A DNA stretch of 44,019 nucleotides, taken from a virus. Below are positions 1,371 through 44,019 of this stretch, piece by piece. The position numbers were made by a program, and so were the translations under genes. Position 1 is the stretch's first letter; each line of letters begins with the position of its first letter. The stretch spans positions 1 through 44,019 of IMG/VR virus record IMGVR_UViG_3300005617_000294; one strand, given 5' to 3'. Under the pieces are notes generated by a model that saw only the letters and a program-made list of their open reading frames with translations, made no database searches and had not been told where the DNA came from.

Positions 1371-2048
1371 ATGCCCTCGCTAGAAAGATTTGTCTACTTG
1401 GTAAAAGCGGGCGAAAACCATTACAAAGTTGGTATCGCTCAAGACGTAATGGACCGGATTAAGAGTATACAAACGGGAAACCCTATTCGCGTAGAGCTAG
1501 TTACGGCAGTATGGCTAGCCGATGCTCAAGTAGCCGAACGCCGCATACACAAATGGCTCTCCCGCTTTAAGTCCGATGGGGGCCGCGAGTGGTTTGAATT
1601 AACGAGCGACCAAGTAGTGTTTCTAGTTATGAAGATGACGAGCCTCACTATGCCCGATGATGTGTCGCGCTATCTTGTTGTCCGCAACTTACTTGCACGA
1701 CAAGATGCAATCGAAAAACGCCTTGCCATGCTAGAACGTCCAGCCGGTTCTCCGGCATTGAAAATAGTAGACAGCGTTCAACTTCCAAATCCCAAGGAAG
1801 TTAAGGCAATCGAAGAAAAGGAAATGTTCGATGAAGCGGTACAGGCCGTCGTCATTGCTGGACGGGCTTCGGCGTCAATGCTTCAGAGGAGGTTAAGGGT
1901 GGGATACGCGAGAGCCGCAAGACTTCTAGATGAGCTGGAAGAAGCAAAAGCAATAGGGCCAGCAGACGGGGCTCGCCCGCGCGAGGTGCTTATAACCAGC
2001 CCTCTAGATGTAGCAGGTGTACCCCTCTCGTCACGGGGGCGAGATTGA
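1371..2048 (+). CDS. MUG113/T5orf172-like (GIY-YIG superfamily) domain fused to an FtsK gamma domain
   Basis: Of 225 residues, 7-80 match the MUG113/T5orf172 layout: FVYLV with Y9, YKVGIA (K19-G21), R29, LQTGNP-like IQTGNP, E56 with H60, and a REWFEL end. This is the GIY-YIG-type fold, though catalytic competence is unproven. Residues 151-209 are a clear FtsK gamma winged helix: ASASMLQRRLRVGY, ARAARLLDELE and GPADGARPREVLI. In FtsK/SpoIIIE this domain reads chromosome-orienting motifs (KOPS/SRS). The motor domain is absent. At the position of the recognition Asn of E. coli FtsK (GYNRAAR) this protein has Ala, keeps the following Arg, and has Asp where E. coli has Glu (from memory). AAGGAG precedes the ATG by 8 bp. 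A charged linker joins the domains. Confidence 0.85.
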   Translation: MPSLERFVYLVKAGENHYKVGIAQDVMDRIKSIQTGNPIRVELVTAVWLADAQVAERRIHKWLSRFKSDGGREWFELTSDQVVFLVMKMTSLTMPDDVSRYLVVRNLLARQDAIEKRLAMLERPAGSPALKIVDSVQLPNPKEVKAIEEKEMFDEAVQAVVIAGRASASMLQRRLRVGYARAARLLDELEEAKAIGPADGARPREVLITSPLDVAGVPLSSRGRD

Positions 2049-3121: not shown

Positions 3122-3388
3122 ATGGGTAAATCGCTTATCGCCATCATCGTCATTCTCGTTGGTCTGGGTTGGGCCATTGCGTCGGGTTTTGTCCAATGGA
3201 AAACCGATCCAGAGAAATGTCTATTTGGTAAATCGTTTCATCATGCCGGCAGTCGACAGACGCTCGTGACCATCGGTCGGCTACATATTTTTTATCAACC
3301 CCTGACATGGGATTGCCCCTACGATGAAAAATATCGGACAGACGAATACCGATTAAAGGACGGGATCTTAGAGCCGATTAAAAAGTAG
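3122..3388 (+). CDS. Small membrane-anchored or exported protein
   Basis: The 88-aa protein has a single N-terminal hydrophobic helix (residues ~4-23, IAIIVILVGLGWAIASG) after a short basic start. A hydrophilic domain follows with C33 and C65 and several aromatics. It could be a signal-anchored protein with an extracytoplasmic domain or a cleaved secreted protein; the two Cys might pair outside the cell. ATG at 3122 has only a weak ribosome binding site. No family recognised. It lies just before the RNA array, and a TATAAT box begins 16 bp after its stop. Confidence 0.55.
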   Translation: MGKSLIAIIVILVGLGWAIASGFVQWKTDPEKCLFGKSFHHAGSRQTLVTIGRLHIFYQPLTWDCPYDEKYRTDEYRLKDGILEPIKK

Positions 3389-3403
3389 AGCATAAGAGTG
3401 TTG

Positions 3404-3409
3404 TATAAT
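3404..3409 (+). promoter_or_regulatory. -10 element for RNA A
   Basis: A consensus TATAAT directly follows the 3122-3388 gene. No good -35 is visible. Predicted start near 3416. Confidence 0.45.
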
Positions 3410-3415
3410 TCACCT

Positions 3416-3668
3416 TGCAGGAGTTGGCGATCCATCAGAGGCTCTTACGTCCTCTTCCGTAAGGATACGACGCGCAAAAGTAATAGACTGAACGCCACGC
3501 AGTCTAACTCTCCAGCACTCCACATGCCCCGTGCTGTGGTTCCACCCCTGAGTCGTATGGTGGTTAAATCGGCGGCTCACTTTAGTGGCATGATATTATG
3601 GTTATAGTCCTTTGTGGCGATAAAAACTCCGTGGCGGAAACCGGCTTGTAAGCGAAGCCGGTTTTTGT
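3416..3668 (+). ncRNA. Structured non-coding RNA A (~250 nt)
   Basis: No credible coding frame is present. A 7-bp helix ATACGAC (3465-3471) with GTCGTAT (3552-3558) encloses two perfect 6-bp hairpins, AGACTG/CAGTCT (3485-3490/3500-3505) and CAGCAC/GTGCTG (3513-3518/3531-3536), forming a multi-way junction. A further hairpin CTTACG/CGTAAG (3444-3449/3458-3463) lies just 5'. It ends at a strong terminator (3640-3666). Not a tRNA: no T-arm consensus or CCA acceptor. The family is not recognised, and the 5' end is inferred from TATAAT at 3404. Confidence 0.6.
3640..3666 (+). terminator. Intrinsic terminator of RNA A
   Basis: ACCGGCTT (3640-3647) and AAGCCGGT (3655-3662) form an 8-bp GC-rich stem with a 7-nt loop. 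The T tract begins within the last stem base and runs to 3666. Confidence 0.85.
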
Positions 3669-3675
3669 GTATAGT
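3646..3675 (+). promoter_or_regulatory. Putative promoter for RNA B inside terminator A
   Basis: TTGTAA (3646-3651) and TATAGT (3670-3675) are 18 bp apart, so the -35 lies in the terminator A stem-loop. Predicted start near 3682. Confidence 0.35.
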
Positions 3676-3681
3676 AGTTAT

Positions 3682-3737
3682 GCATCCACCTCGTTGCAAC
3701 GTACTAAACCCCGTATCACCTCACGGGGTTTAGTTTT
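3682..3737 (+). ncRNA. Short RNA B (~55 nt)
   Basis: Between terminator A and terminator B lies a short stretch with a GTTGCAAC palindrome, with no room for a gene. If the promoter at 3646-3675 is real, the transcript is about 55 nt and ends at the 12-bp hairpin 3703-3734. Alternatively this is only a double terminator. Confidence 0.3.
3703..3737 (+). terminator. Strong intrinsic terminator B
   Basis: ACTAAACCCCGT (3703-3714) pairs perfectly with ACGGGGTTTAGT (3723-3734) over an 8-nt loop, and TTTT runs 3734-3737. One of the strongest hairpins in the window. Confidence 0.85.
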
Positions 3738-3753
3738 GTGCTATACAAGTAAT

Positions 3754-3858
3754 TACCCACTATGGCATAATTAAACTAGATTCTTCACGGAGTCTATAAA
3801 ACTCAAATAAAAACAAATACAAGCAGAGCCGCCAGTAGTATTTATTACGGCGGCTTTC
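3754..3858 (+). ncRNA. Short RNA C
   Basis: Two extended -10-like elements precede it: TG-C-TATACA (3739-3747) and TG-G-CATAAT (3763-3771). The region is A-rich and ends in a hairpin AGCCGCC (3827-3833) / GGCGGCT (3849-3855), which an inner GTA/TAC pair can extend, followed by TTTC. No coding frame. The start is uncertain (near 3754 or 3778). Confidence 0.4.
3827..3858 (+). terminator. Terminator C
   Basis: A 7-bp GC-rich stem AGCCGCC/GGCGGCT with a 15-nt loop ends in a short T run. Confidence 0.6.
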
Positions 3859-3915
3859 GCTGTATGAGCAATATATTAACTTCACTGACATATTGATGGT
3901 GAGATATAAGAAAAA

Positions 3916-3924
3916 TGGTAAAAT
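3916..3924 (+). promoter_or_regulatory. Extended -10 promoter for RNA D
   Basis: TG-G-TAAAAT gives an extended -10. TTGATG at 3893-3898 is 20 bp upstream, longer than usual for a -35. Predicted start near 3931. Confidence 0.45.
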
Positions 3925-3930
3925 CTTTAT

Positions 3931-4347
3931 ATATGAGGTGAATAGTGGAACTCGACTATTTAATGGCTACTTCTCAGATGTACCAGCCTCTTTCGCTTTT
4001 GGTACAATAAAGAAGCCTTCGTGACACGGTTGCGCTCGCGGCATAGAAGTTTGACAGGTTCAGATGGGACTTCGGCGGTAGTGGCATTTGCAGGGTGCAT
4101 CCTGACTTCGTCCATGAGCTGCATACGGGCGGATTGGAATTAAGCCCCGTAAGTTCCTTCCGAGCCTGCCAGACTGCGCGTGCCATCGGTTTCGAGCTTG
4201 CACAACCGTCCGGGGTAAGCGCTGGGCGCTTGGAGTCACCCCGGAACTTGGCGACTTCACCGCTTTAAAGCGGACTGGTCCACAGCTGACGCCAAGCCAC
4301 GGAGAAACAGAATACCCGCTCTCTCAAAAGGAGGCGGGTATTTCTTA
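3931..4347 (+). ncRNA. Large structured RNA D (~415 nt)
   Basis: Perfect local helices run along the segment: AATAGT/ACTATT (3941-3946/3955-3960), GTACCA/TGGTAC (3980-3985/4000-4005), and CCGGGGT/ACCCCGG (4210-4216/4238-4244) enclosing AAGCGC/GCGCTT (4217-4222/4226-4231). CTTGGCG/CGCCAAG (4247-4253/4290-4296) encloses the palindromic hairpin CCGCTTTAAAGCGG (4260-4273). It ends in a 9-bp hairpin AATACCCGC/GCGGGTATT (4311-4319/4334-4342) with a U-rich tail. Antisense frames here have no protein-like composition. Such nested architecture recalls ornate phage RNAs such as GOLLD or ROOL in general style only; I cannot assign a family. Confidence 0.6.
4311..4347 (+). terminator. Terminator-like hairpin at the end of RNA D
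   Basis: AATACCCGC and GCGGGTATT form a 9-bp stem with a 14-nt loop containing an inner CTC/GAG. The tail TTTCTTATT is only partly T-rich, so readthrough into the next structured segment is plausible. Confidence 0.6.
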
Positions 4348-4349
4348 TT

Positions 4350-4473
4350 ACAACTCGTAGGATTGGCCCTGCTGTTTGCCGCAGGCTCGCTAGGTACTCT
4401 CTGAAGTACCGCTTGTTTCCTACCCTGGTTGTCAGGTGATGACGGGTCCATCCGTCTAGGTAGAGTGTATCAC
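4350..4473 (+). ncRNA. Nested-helix RNA segment following RNA D
   Basis: ACAAC (4350-4354) pairs with GTTGT (4428-4432) and GTAGGA (4357-4362) with TCCTAC (4418-4423). Together they enclose two hairpins, CCTGC/GCAGG (4368-4372/4381-4385) and GGTACT/AGTACC (4393-4398/4405-4410): a three-way junction. Next, GTGAT/ATCAC (4436-4440/4469-4473) encloses GACGG/CCGTC (4441-4445/4452-4456). I see no separate promoter, so this may be the 3' part of RNA D. Confidence 0.5.
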
Positions 4474-4515
4474 GACATTGAAAAGATATCCTGTAAAGTT
4501 ACAAGAATAACCGCA

Positions 4516-4545
4516 TTGACTCCACGTATTGTTAGGAGCTATGAT
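4516..4545 (+). promoter_or_regulatory. Promoter for RNA E
   Basis: TTGACT (4516-4521) and TATGAT (4540-4545) are 18 bp apart, the best -35/-10 pair in the array. Predicted start near 4552. Confidence 0.55.
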
Positions 4546-4551
4546 GAGTGC

Positions 4552-4695
4552 CTAGTAGGTTTGCGTAGTTGCTAACAGACTAGAACCCAAGCGAATAGTT
4601 GAGGGCAGTCTGTTGACCAGAATCTGTAAGTGTGTTAAGTTTATCTTAACTACGCAGACAGAACTCTGAAAAACCTCCCTCACCGGAGGTTTTTC
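4552..4695 (+). ncRNA. Structured small RNA E (~143 nt)
   Basis: A 9-bp helix TGCGTAGTT (4562-4570) with AACTACGCA (4648-4656) encloses the hairpin CAGACT/AGTCTG (4576-4581/4607-4612) with a 25-nt loop. GTTAAG/CTTAAC (4634-4639/4645-4650) is a competing hairpin sharing AAC with the long helix, so two folds are possible. The 3' end is a strong terminator at 4669-4694. Promoter, compact fold and terminator together make it a good independent small RNA. A 6S-like or decoy function is only a guess. Confidence 0.6.
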
Positions 4696-4696
4696 T
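4669..4696 (+). terminator. Strong intrinsic terminator of RNA E
   Basis: AAAAACCTCC (4669-4678) pairs with GGAGGTTTTT (4685-4694) over a 6-nt loop. A classic A-tract/stem/T-tract terminator, potentially bidirectional. Confidence 0.9.
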
Positions 4697-4700
4697 TTCG

Positions 4701-4863
4701 GACGGGTCCATCCCTATTCACTAGGTGAGGTCATCGCGGACCTTAAACTAAACGACTGGACATGCCGCCAGTAAACAACCCAAAGCTCCTACAGGCTGCC
4801 TAGTTATGCTAGAAAACAATTGTAGGTCTTACGTGTAGGCTCCCACTCAGTTGGGGGCAGACC
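4701..4863 (+). ncRNA. Further hairpin-rich segment before the C2H2 gene
   Basis: A 13-nt copy of GACGGGTCCATCC (4701-4713) repeats the one at 4441-4453. Hairpins follow: AGGTC/GACCT (4728-4732/4739-4743), ACTGG/CCAGT (4755-4759/4768-4772), CCTACA/TGTAGG (4788-4793/4821-4826), and GGTCT/AGACC (4825-4829/4859-4863) enclosing GCTCCCA/TGGGGGC (4839-4845/4852-4858). No gene or clear terminator is seen. It could be another RNA or the leader of the downstream operon. A purine-rich GAGGGGAGGGGG run follows at 4874-4885. Confidence 0.4.
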
Positions 4864-4941
4864 AGCCAGGTAAGAGGGGAGGGGGCCGGAGGCTTTAATC
4901 ATGCCAGTAGCATAGTACAGTGTAATAATAGGAGAGAAGTT

Positions 4942-5133
4942 ATGAGAATAGCTTGCCCTACGTGTCAAAAACCGTGTAGTAGCCGAGGAAGCTTAACAAT
5001 GCACATGAACGCAATGCACCTTAGCCTCTCGCCCAGTCAGCTTGCTCAAATTGAGGCCTATAAAGGCCGAGTACTTGAAAAAGGTGAGGCAGAACGTGAG
5101 TTTGGCCTAGTCAAGCCATCCGAGGAAAAATGA
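4942..5133 (+). CDS. C2H2 zinc-finger small protein
   Basis: The 63-residue protein has a classical C-x2-C-x12-H-x4-H finger at C5, C8, H21, H26 (CPTC...MHMNAMH) and a helical charged tail. AGGAG precedes the ATG by about 8 bp. Its TGA overlaps the ATG of the methyltransferase gene (ATGA), so the two are translationally coupled. The single finger suggests DNA or protein contact, perhaps with the methyltransferase; that link is inferred from context only. Confidence 0.8.
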   Translation: MRIACPTCQKPCSSRGSLTMHMNAMHLSLSPSQLAQIEAYKGRVLEKGEAEREFGLVKPSEEK

Positions 5134-7657: not shown

Positions 7658-7770
7658 TGCTCGACTGCGACCACGACAACAAGTATATCGGTGACGTTAA
7701 GATTGACGGCGTGTTGTGGAAGTTTTATCGCTGTAGTGAATGTAAGACAGTAAAAAGGGAACTAGTATGA
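7657..7770 (+). CDS. 37-aa zinc-ribbon peptide
   Basis: The ATG overlaps the preceding TAA and its TGA overlaps the RNA ligase ATG (ATGA). Ligands C4, H6 and C26-x2-C29 (CSEC) resemble a miniature zinc ribbon. Tight coupling on both sides supports it. Confidence 0.55.
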   Translation: MLDCDHDNKYIGDVKIDGVLWKFYRCSECKTVKRELV

Positions 7771-8324
7771 AGAAGATCGTTAGCCTATACCAGAGAAACT
7801 ATGAAACCGACCGCCTCGTGCGTGACGAGATAGTACCCGGTGCGGAATGGGTAATCAACGGCGAGGGGGTTGCCACTCGTAAATACGATGGCACTTGTTG
7901 CCTAGTAAAAGACGGACGACTGTTTAAGCGGTATGAGGTCAAGCAAGGCAAGACGCCTCCGTTTGGTTTTGTTCCAGCCAATGATGTAGACCCTATGACT
8001 GGTAAGCAACAGGGGTGGGTAGAAGTGGGTAATGGCAACGAAGACCGTGCTTACCGCGAGGCCGTGGGAGGCAACCTAGACAAAGTGGACTTGCCCAATG
8101 GAACGTATGAGCTCGTTGGCCCGAAGGTTCAGAGCAATCCTGAACACTACGATGAGCATACGCTTGTTGCCCATGACGACGCTGAAGTGCTAGAAGATGC
8201 ACCGCGTAAGTTTGAAGAGATAAAAGCTTATCTAGCGGACAAGGACATTGAAGGTATTGTCTGGCATCATCCCGATGGACGTATGGTGAAGATTAAGAAA
8301 AAGGACTTTGGTTACAAGAGGTGA
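7767..8324 (+). CDS. RNA ligase, DUF5565/RLIG1-like nucleotidyltransferase
   Basis: The 185-aa protein has the covalent nucleotidyltransferase motif I K39-Y-D-G-T in ATRKYDGTCCLVKDG, closely like the KVDGTCC motif I recall for vertebrate C12orf29/RLIG1. A motif Ia-like KRYEV, motif III-like TYELVG (E115), motif IV EGIVWHH (162-168) and motif V MVKIKKKDFG (173-182) follow. The family seals 5'-phosphate to 3'-hydroxyl RNA ends through an AMP-lysine intermediate. It probably repairs phage or host RNA broken by defence nucleases. Coupled by ATGA to the zinc-ribbon peptide upstream and by GTGA to the membrane peptide downstream. Confidence 0.85.
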   Translation: MKKIVSLYQRNYETDRLVRDEIVPGAEWVINGEGVATRKYDGTCCLVKDGRLFKRYEVKQGKTPPFGFVPANDVDPMTGKQQGWVEVGNGNEDRAYREAVGGNLDKVDLPNGTYELVGPKVQSNPEHYDEHTLVAHDDAEVLEDAPRKFEEIKAYLADKDIEGIVWHHPDGRMVKIKKKDFGYKR

Positions 8325-43191: not shown

Positions 43192-44019
43192 GCCTCGTCT
43201 CCTGGCGCAATACTTAGATACTGCTCTTTGCTTATCCCAAAGGCAGATGCCTGGGCGAGGTCAGCATCGTGTTGACGACCAATCTCCGGCGGTACCCACT
43301 CCAAGAACGGCCGGCCAGTACTTGGACAGAACATAGTCATGGCAAACTCGGTCTCGCCAGTGTCCATAAAATTAGGTACCTCATACAACTTTGTTGGCTC
43401 TTTGGCGCGGGTGGGCTTAACACCAGCGCTGACGAGCTTCGCATTGGCTTGCTCCAGAAACTTTTGCGGGTTGGCCATTACAAGGGCCACTGACCGCTGA
43501 TCGGCATTAGGGATGTTTTGGAGGATATCATCGATAGTTATCTCTTGGTTAACGACTTTCCAATAAAGATCCTTTTCGAAACGAACCCCGTGAAGGAAAA
43601 ATAGCTCGTAACCCTCCCAAGCAATTGCGGGACCGTGGTCATAGTGAAGCCGACCATCAAAGCGATGTATTTCTTTAGGACGCTCGCAAACCATAACAAA
43701 ATCTTTGTGTGGCCAAATCCAGCATGCACTCTCGCATAGCGCGCTATAAATTCGTGCTCTTTCCGCCATATCTTCGCTCAATTTCAATTCGCATACGTCA
43801 GTTAAAAACGAGACGTAACTCGGTGAACCCCACCAACCACCTACCCAAAATTGCCCCCCAAGACGGCGATACCAATTGTTCCTTACGTAGTCAACCGCAC
43901 CGCCAACCGCACCGCCAACCGCACCGTCAACCGCATCGCGAACCGCACCGTCAACCGCATCGCGAACCGCACCGTCAACCGCATCGCGAACCGCACCGTC
44001 AACCGCATCGCCAACCGCA
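43188..44019 (-). CDS. DUF6745-like repeat protein, C-terminal part
   Basis: The frame is open from the right end to TGA at 43188 (276 residues, plus one partial codon at 44019). It opens with X-[D/G]-A-V repeats and continues DYVRNNWYRRLGGQFW. It then has the recognisable core: YSALCESACWIWPHKDFVMV, CERPKEIHRFDGRLHYDHGP and AIAWEGYELFFLHGV, as in DUF6745. The internal ATG at 43787 would remove conserved sequence, so I do not treat it as the start; the real start is at 444 on the other side of the ends. Function unknown. Confidence 0.8.
   Translation of the reverse strand, partial: AVGDAVDGAVRDAVDGAVRDAVDGAVRDAVDGAVGGAVGGAVDYVRNNWYRRLGGQFWVGGWWGSPSYVSFLTDVCELKLSEDMAERARIYSALCESACWIWPHKDFVMVCERPKEIHRFDGRLHYDHGPAIAWEGYELFFLHGVRFEKDLYWKVVNQEITIDDILQNIPNADQRSVALVMANPQKFLEQANAKLVSAGVKPTRAKEPTKLYEVPNFMDTGETEFAMTMFCPSTGRPFLEWVPPEIGRQHDADLAQASAFGISKEQYLSIAPGDEA
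43893..44019. repeat. 12-bp tandem repeat array (right end)
   Basis: Ten full 12-bp units and a 7-base remainder. The last 103 bases (43917-44019) are identical to bases 25-127. The preceding two units (ACCGCC, ACCGCC) differ from the corresponding left-end units, so the two ends are not a simple exact terminal overlap. Confidence 0.95.

Follow-up and report, generated by a model that had tools for sequence, protein, structure and literature searches.

What might a phage keep in 1.5 kb of DNA that holds no convincing gene? The question is raised by positions 3389-4941 of the stretch analysed here (the window), a complete IMG/VR virus record of 44,019 bases. An earlier reading of the letters, the first-pass annotation, had described this interval as an array of structured non-coding RNAs. 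From three features of the sequence itself, namely the absence of genes, the clustering of terminators and a complementarity to the host gene dnaN, our preferred answer, to which we give a probability of roughly 40%, is that the plus strand bears an array of three or four small RNA genes, each with its own terminator, and that the first of them (unit 1) is antisense to dnaN.

The interval and its phage

The window virus is a tailed phage. Its minus strand encodes a major head protein, terminase, a portal-like protein, tail proteins and an endolysin, and the early arm, on the plus strand, encodes a ParB-like protein, a C5 DNA methylase, an Erf-type annealing protein and an RNA ligase. We take a 676-aa protein for the portal. 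Its relatives are encoded by 61 viral contigs, several of them near-identical to the window phage, and none of those checked covers the early arm. When an alignment of this protein was searched against a genome collection, it found a match in one MAG, whose phylum (380 genomes) has small genomes, mostly of ~1 Mb. For this reason, we infer a Patescibacteria-type host, an attribution that follows genome size in the phylum and carries no named assignment. The window phage probably infects very small parasitic bacteria.

Two observations on the genome may be recorded here. The same AACCGCACCGTCAACCGCATCGC-type tandem repeat is present at both ends of the record (1-215 and about 43880-44019), which makes a circular or circularly permuted genome, cut within this repeat, probable. 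In addition, a single 225-aa protein (1371-2048, plus strand), for which no relative was found among the viral contigs, combines a GIY-YIG/T5orf172 domain with an FtsK gamma (DNA-orienting) domain.

Downstream of the interval lies a cluster of DNA-methylase and recombination genes. Trained on the genes of the phage itself, a codon score was about zero or negative for the ORFs within the interval, the single exception being a 42-aa ORF (MVRYKKNGKIFIYEVNSGTRLFNGYFSDVPASFAFGTIKKPS) that scores 10.8, and a Pfam scan of six ORFs from the interval returned zero matches. A coding explanation of the interval was rejected on these two results. The statement that no protein-like frame exists is accordingly sound insofar as there is no convincing gene, and needs a reservation for this one possible short ORF. 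The Rfam and protein-family checks that had been proposed thus both came back empty for the interval; for the whole window, Rfam gave 0 matches at gathering thresholds and nothing meaningful at permissive ones. No origin-type repeat array was found in the interval. It does contain two exact copies of a 13-nt repeat, each followed after 2 or 7 bases by CTAGGT; the repeat was not found in the relatives and, among the viral contigs, occurs in two unrelated high-GC phages. The nearby RNA ligase, to which some interest had been attached, is a real gene (7767-8324, plus strand; phrog_14301, about 50-53% identical to mycobacteriophage and Burkholderia phage proteins), but no link between it and the array was found.

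Table 1. Features of the interval in the window, and loci of RNA X in related or RNA X-bearing phages
Feature	Position	Strand	Remarks
Non-coding interval	3389-4941	+	Between ORF 3122-3388 and zinc-finger ORF 4942-5133; from ORF list, codon score, no Rfam, no Pfam
-10-like hexamer TATAAT	3404-3409	+	Perfect hexamer, weak -35; possible unit 1 promoter, weak and absent from promoter scan list
Putative RNA unit 1	3416-3665	+	dnaN-antisense segment, terminator at end; body no more folded than shuffled DNA
Segment complementary to 3' end of host dnaN mRNA	3567-3612	+	Core 3580-3610; inside unit 1, just before terminator
Intrinsic terminator 1	3638-3664	+	10 bp, T tract
Intrinsic terminator 2	3703-3734	+	12 bp, T tract
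Promoter-like site	3742-3771	+	TATACA-18-CATAAT with TG; 9/12
Stable long hairpin	3817-3865	+	No T tract; z -6.5 for 3805-3872; terminator role not confirmed
Possible 42-aa ORF	3896-4024	+	Gene-like codon score; no Shine-Dalgarno, no Pfam; overlaps unit 3
Putative RNA unit 3 body	4015-4303	+	Predicted closing helix, long rod 4026-4208, two more arms; z -2.4 without terminator
Bidirectional terminator hairpin	4311-4342		13 bp
13-nt repeat GACGGGTCCATCC, copy 1	4441-4453	+	Exact
Promoter-like site	4516-4545	+	TTGACT-18-TATGAT; 10/12; best inside interval
Putative RNA unit 4	4552-4697	+	~146 nt between promoter-like site and terminator; two near-equal folds
Terminator of unit 4	4668-4695	+	11 bp, T tract
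13-nt repeat GACGGGTCCATCC, copy 2	4701-4713	+	Exact
Promoter-like site	4901-4929	+	Of downstream zinc-finger/DNA-methylase genes; 9/12
RNA X	L219:4328-4512	-	Portal relative G022
RNA X	L221:6764-6947	-	Portal relative G010
RNA X	L218:967-1153	-	
RNA X	L220:8569-8753	-	
RNA X	L264:6300-6480	+	
RNA X	L266:4257-4443	-	

Terminators, promoter-like sites and folding

The strongest regularity in the interval is its terminators. Four strong ones lie on the plus strand within 1.1 kb; at a rate of about 16 such terminators per 88 kb of strand, 0.28 would be expected in 1.55 kb, and the Poisson probability of at least four in the interval is 2e-4. Five terminator-like hairpins had been claimed, of which those at 3640, 3703, 4311 and 4669 are indeed strong, and the one at 3827 is a stable hairpin that lacks a T run. 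The promoter-like sites said to alternate with them are only mildly enriched (20 against 12 +/- 4 in 10 kb), but the site at 4516-4545 scores well and, with the terminator downstream of it, frames unit 4. For unit 1 as a discrete transcript, the terminator is present and the promoter is only weak.

Such a layout could also belong to one long 5' UTR leader of the methylase operon, in which attenuator-type terminators control the early genes. Every terminator does point towards the downstream genes, and unit 4 has alternative predicted folds of similar energy, including one with a long-range helix that lies 4 kcal/mol above the best. Nevertheless, a leader of 1.5 kb with four full terminators would be unusual, a fresh promoter-like site stands just before the first gene of the operon, and an alternative antiterminator fold was shown for none of terminators 1 to 3. 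We regard this reading as quite improbable.

Folding was measured in sliding segments of 150 nt, for which the background z has a mean of -0.13 and a standard deviation of 1.02. Values of -3 to -6 were obtained at 3600-3830, 4200-4340 and 4560-4700. With the terminators included, z is -4.9 for 4546-4700 and -4.2 for 4015-4340; with the terminator hairpins removed, it is -2.6 for 4552-4666, -2.4 for 4015-4303 and -0.2 for 3416-3636. The bulk of the folding excess is therefore that of terminator hairpins; units 3 and 4 keep a modest excess and unit 1 keeps none. Folding of the stretches 4345-4480 and 4700-4941 does not exceed that of shuffled DNA. What survives of the densely structured array is an excess at the terminators and a modest one in two of the bodies, and it does not extend to the body of unit 1. 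The multi-way junctions are not confirmed; they are predictions from a single sequence that covariation does not back.

Searches for homologues of the interval in viral contigs and in the relatives' whole records found none; blastn against the phage collection gave a match to a flanking gene only. The same was true of 380 + 394 genomes (~770) from the likely host phylum and family, in which matches other than that to dnaN were terminator-like, AT-rich or at chance level. Single-sequence covariance models, R2 and R3, found nothing in 1.2 Mb of relatives plus 295 genomes each, such models being weak, and a positive control was lacking for some of the homologue searches. The early-arm genes were also tried as queries for relatives: the phages found with the methylase and RNA ligase do not share the interval, the zinc-finger query gave short partial matches only, and the GIY-YIG/FtsK gamma protein found no relative. 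The view that the interval comprises several RNA units, not one UTR, is partly supported by the four same-strand terminators and by the two bodies that fold modestly above chance.

These results bear on a second alternative, that of a gene graveyard carrying terminators in tandem: the dnaN piece would be a fragment captured from a host, the folds would be by-products and no RNA would act alone. A fold excess that is modest or absent once the terminators are removed, the unstructured non-terminator parts named above and the lack of any conservation found would all suit such an origin. It accounts poorly for four strong terminators on one strand in 1.1 kb, for an isolated promoter-terminator pair around unit 4 and for a dnaN similarity limited to 31-45 nt of the gene's 3' end. 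We consider it improbable.

Large ornamented phage RNAs such as GOLLD and ROOL are often, though not as a strictly defining property, encoded near tRNA islands (PMC12286853). The array resembles them as a phage-encoded non-coding RNA region, but it would consist of several short terminated units in place of one ornate RNA. The GOLLD and ROOL models of Rfam had no match in the window at gathering or permissive thresholds, and no tRNA or tmRNA genes are present in it.

Complementarity to the end of the host clamp gene

The most informative feature for the function of the array escaped the first-pass annotation. The segment 3567-3612 is the reverse complement of the 3' end of dnaN, the sliding clamp gene, of small-genome bacteria. 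An unguided search with the interval against the 380 genomes of the phylum of the portal-matching MAG had its top match (E 1.7e-7) in one genome, G379, where 39/45 nt are identical at the very end of dnaN, the match crossing the stop codon and running ~9 nt beyond. G597, another genome of the family to which G379 belongs, has a dnaN end that matches there as well (26/29). On the minus strand the segment reads KDYNHNIMPLK-stop, where host clamps end DYKHIIMPLKS or NYNHIIMPLKS; relative to the hosts seen, the segment lacks the last serine codon and carries an isoleucine-to-asparagine change.

Built from 28 other dnaN ends, without either discovery genome, a nucleotide profile has a single significant match in the window, at 3580-3610 (E 5.8e-4). 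When the discovery genomes are included, no other phage DNA fetched (2.8 Mb) matches the profile as well as the window, and none of those phages shows the segment. Most of the 3' ends at the 31 dnaN loci read (one via a wrong ORF) align better than shuffled sequence. Similarity to the DnaN protein does not reach upstream past the last codons and is confined to 31-45 nt of the gene's 3' end. Complementarity to dnaN was thus found for the inferred host family, and the exact host may match to a different degree. Two other dnaN-like matches were set aside: a supposed second piece, L227, sits in an endonuclease IV-like gene and is due to chance, and a match in phage G023, with a chance-level score, lies inside its integrase ORF.

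The main rival to the antisense reading takes the segment for an attP. The phage or an ancestor would integrate at the 3' end of dnaN, and the surrounding hairpins would be ordinary terminators that isolate the site. The 3' ends of conserved genes are commonly used by temperate phages, and a short identity with a host gene end that crosses the stop codon and continues past it, as in G379, is what such a site would look like. Furthermore, tyrosine integrases are encoded in 2/18 other related or RNA X-bearing phage records. However, no dnaN-end segment was found in the integrase-carrying relatives, and the window phage itself has neither a tyrosine integrase (PF00589) nor any other recombinase among its Pfam-scanned proteins. 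The C-terminal codons are altered as well: with the serine codon lost and an asparagine in place of isoleucine, integration into the hosts seen would not restore the protein. On balance, an attachment site is unlikely.

The antisense reading starts from the position of the segment. It ends ~25 bases ahead of terminator 1, so that a plus-strand RNA would carry antisense to dnaN. The predicted duplex with dnaN of G379 has an energy of -75.6 kcal/mol, against -44 for shuffled sequence. Over 30 dnaN genes, the predicted pairing averages -47 at the 3' end against -41 elsewhere in the gene, and the 3' end is the best stretch in 9 of them. The antisense stretch is itself partly paired in the predicted fold of unit 1. 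We infer that the array is transcribed and that the pairing occurs in the cell with an effect on dnaN. Unit 1 would then most likely be a trans-acting antisense RNA, its 31-45-nt segment upstream of the terminator base-pairing to the conserved final codons of dnaN in the host mRNA. Such pairing might alter the output of the sliding clamp, or of a cotranscribed downstream gene, during infection. Unit 4, and unit 3 with its end at 4342, would represent additional RNAs of the phage.

A phage RNA aimed at dnaN has a precedent in PreS (LPR1), an sRNA of phage lambda that targets host dnaN mRNA, and other phage sRNAs are known (PMC12197685). Both PreS and the putative unit 1 are phage-encoded small RNAs with host dnaN mRNA as their partner, predicted in the case of unit 1. 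No sequence relation between them is claimed, the complementarity of unit 1 involves the extreme 3' end of dnaN, and the probable host of its phage is a distant, small-genome bacterium. A wider proposal can be built on the likeness, namely an sRNA cassette in a phage of ultra-small bacteria, one RNA of which reprograms the clamp gene via the end of its mRNA as an independent counterpart of PreS, with related phages carrying a different, pseudoknotted RNA with covariation support in a comparable early region. In this full form the proposal is doubtful. If unit 1 is antisense to dnaN, RNA would have been turned against one and the same replication gene by two phages that are unrelated and whose hosts are very distant. 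This would suggest that the clamp is a general control point in phage takeover, and unit 1 would be a regulator open to testing, a rarity among phages of bacteria with small genomes that are hard to culture.

A different RNA in related phages

A short stretch common to the non-coding regions of two verified portal relatives, G022 and G010, led to the RNA that we call RNA X (Table 1). A pattern made from this stretch recovered two further phages, and a looser pattern together with a covariance model, R1, two more, which brings the number to six. RNA X is about 185 nt long, with 38 pairs in 7 helices in the model. In 95.6% of cells the bases are paired, against 84.3% in shuffles; both sides have changed in 14 pairs, and the covariation score is 0.433 against 0.211, counts that lean towards the modelled structure as the model was built from four of the six sequences. 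Helix 7 is likely to be spurious, as its bases form a pseudoknot instead, made by pairing of the loop GCCCCCT with the tail AGGGGGC. This pairing, read by eye, is maintained in variant form as GACCCCT/AGGGGTC in L220, AGCCCCT/AGGGGCT in L264 and ACCGCCT/AGGCGGT in L266.

RNA X is a candidate for a new class of structured RNA with good covariation. The one locus scanned had no Rfam match. Two matches among the genomes searched were judged to be chance; they are the same stretch in two related genomes, antisense to an apparent coding frame. Model R1 did not match the window with default filters, and its best score with the filters off, 8 bits, was also judged to be chance. RNA X has no homology to any part of the window, and its likeness to the array is one of place: it too is situated, as a structured RNA, between clusters of early genes, and its transcription runs against the structural genes in those relatives for which both orientations are known (G022 and G010). 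In these two phages, RNA X lies roughly 5.5-7 kb from the same tail-end gene as the array does in the window. We count these six phages, with a covariation-supported RNA between early gene clusters, in favour of the array of small RNA genes. In several of them, RNA X is adjoined by Erf/RecT-type recombination genes.
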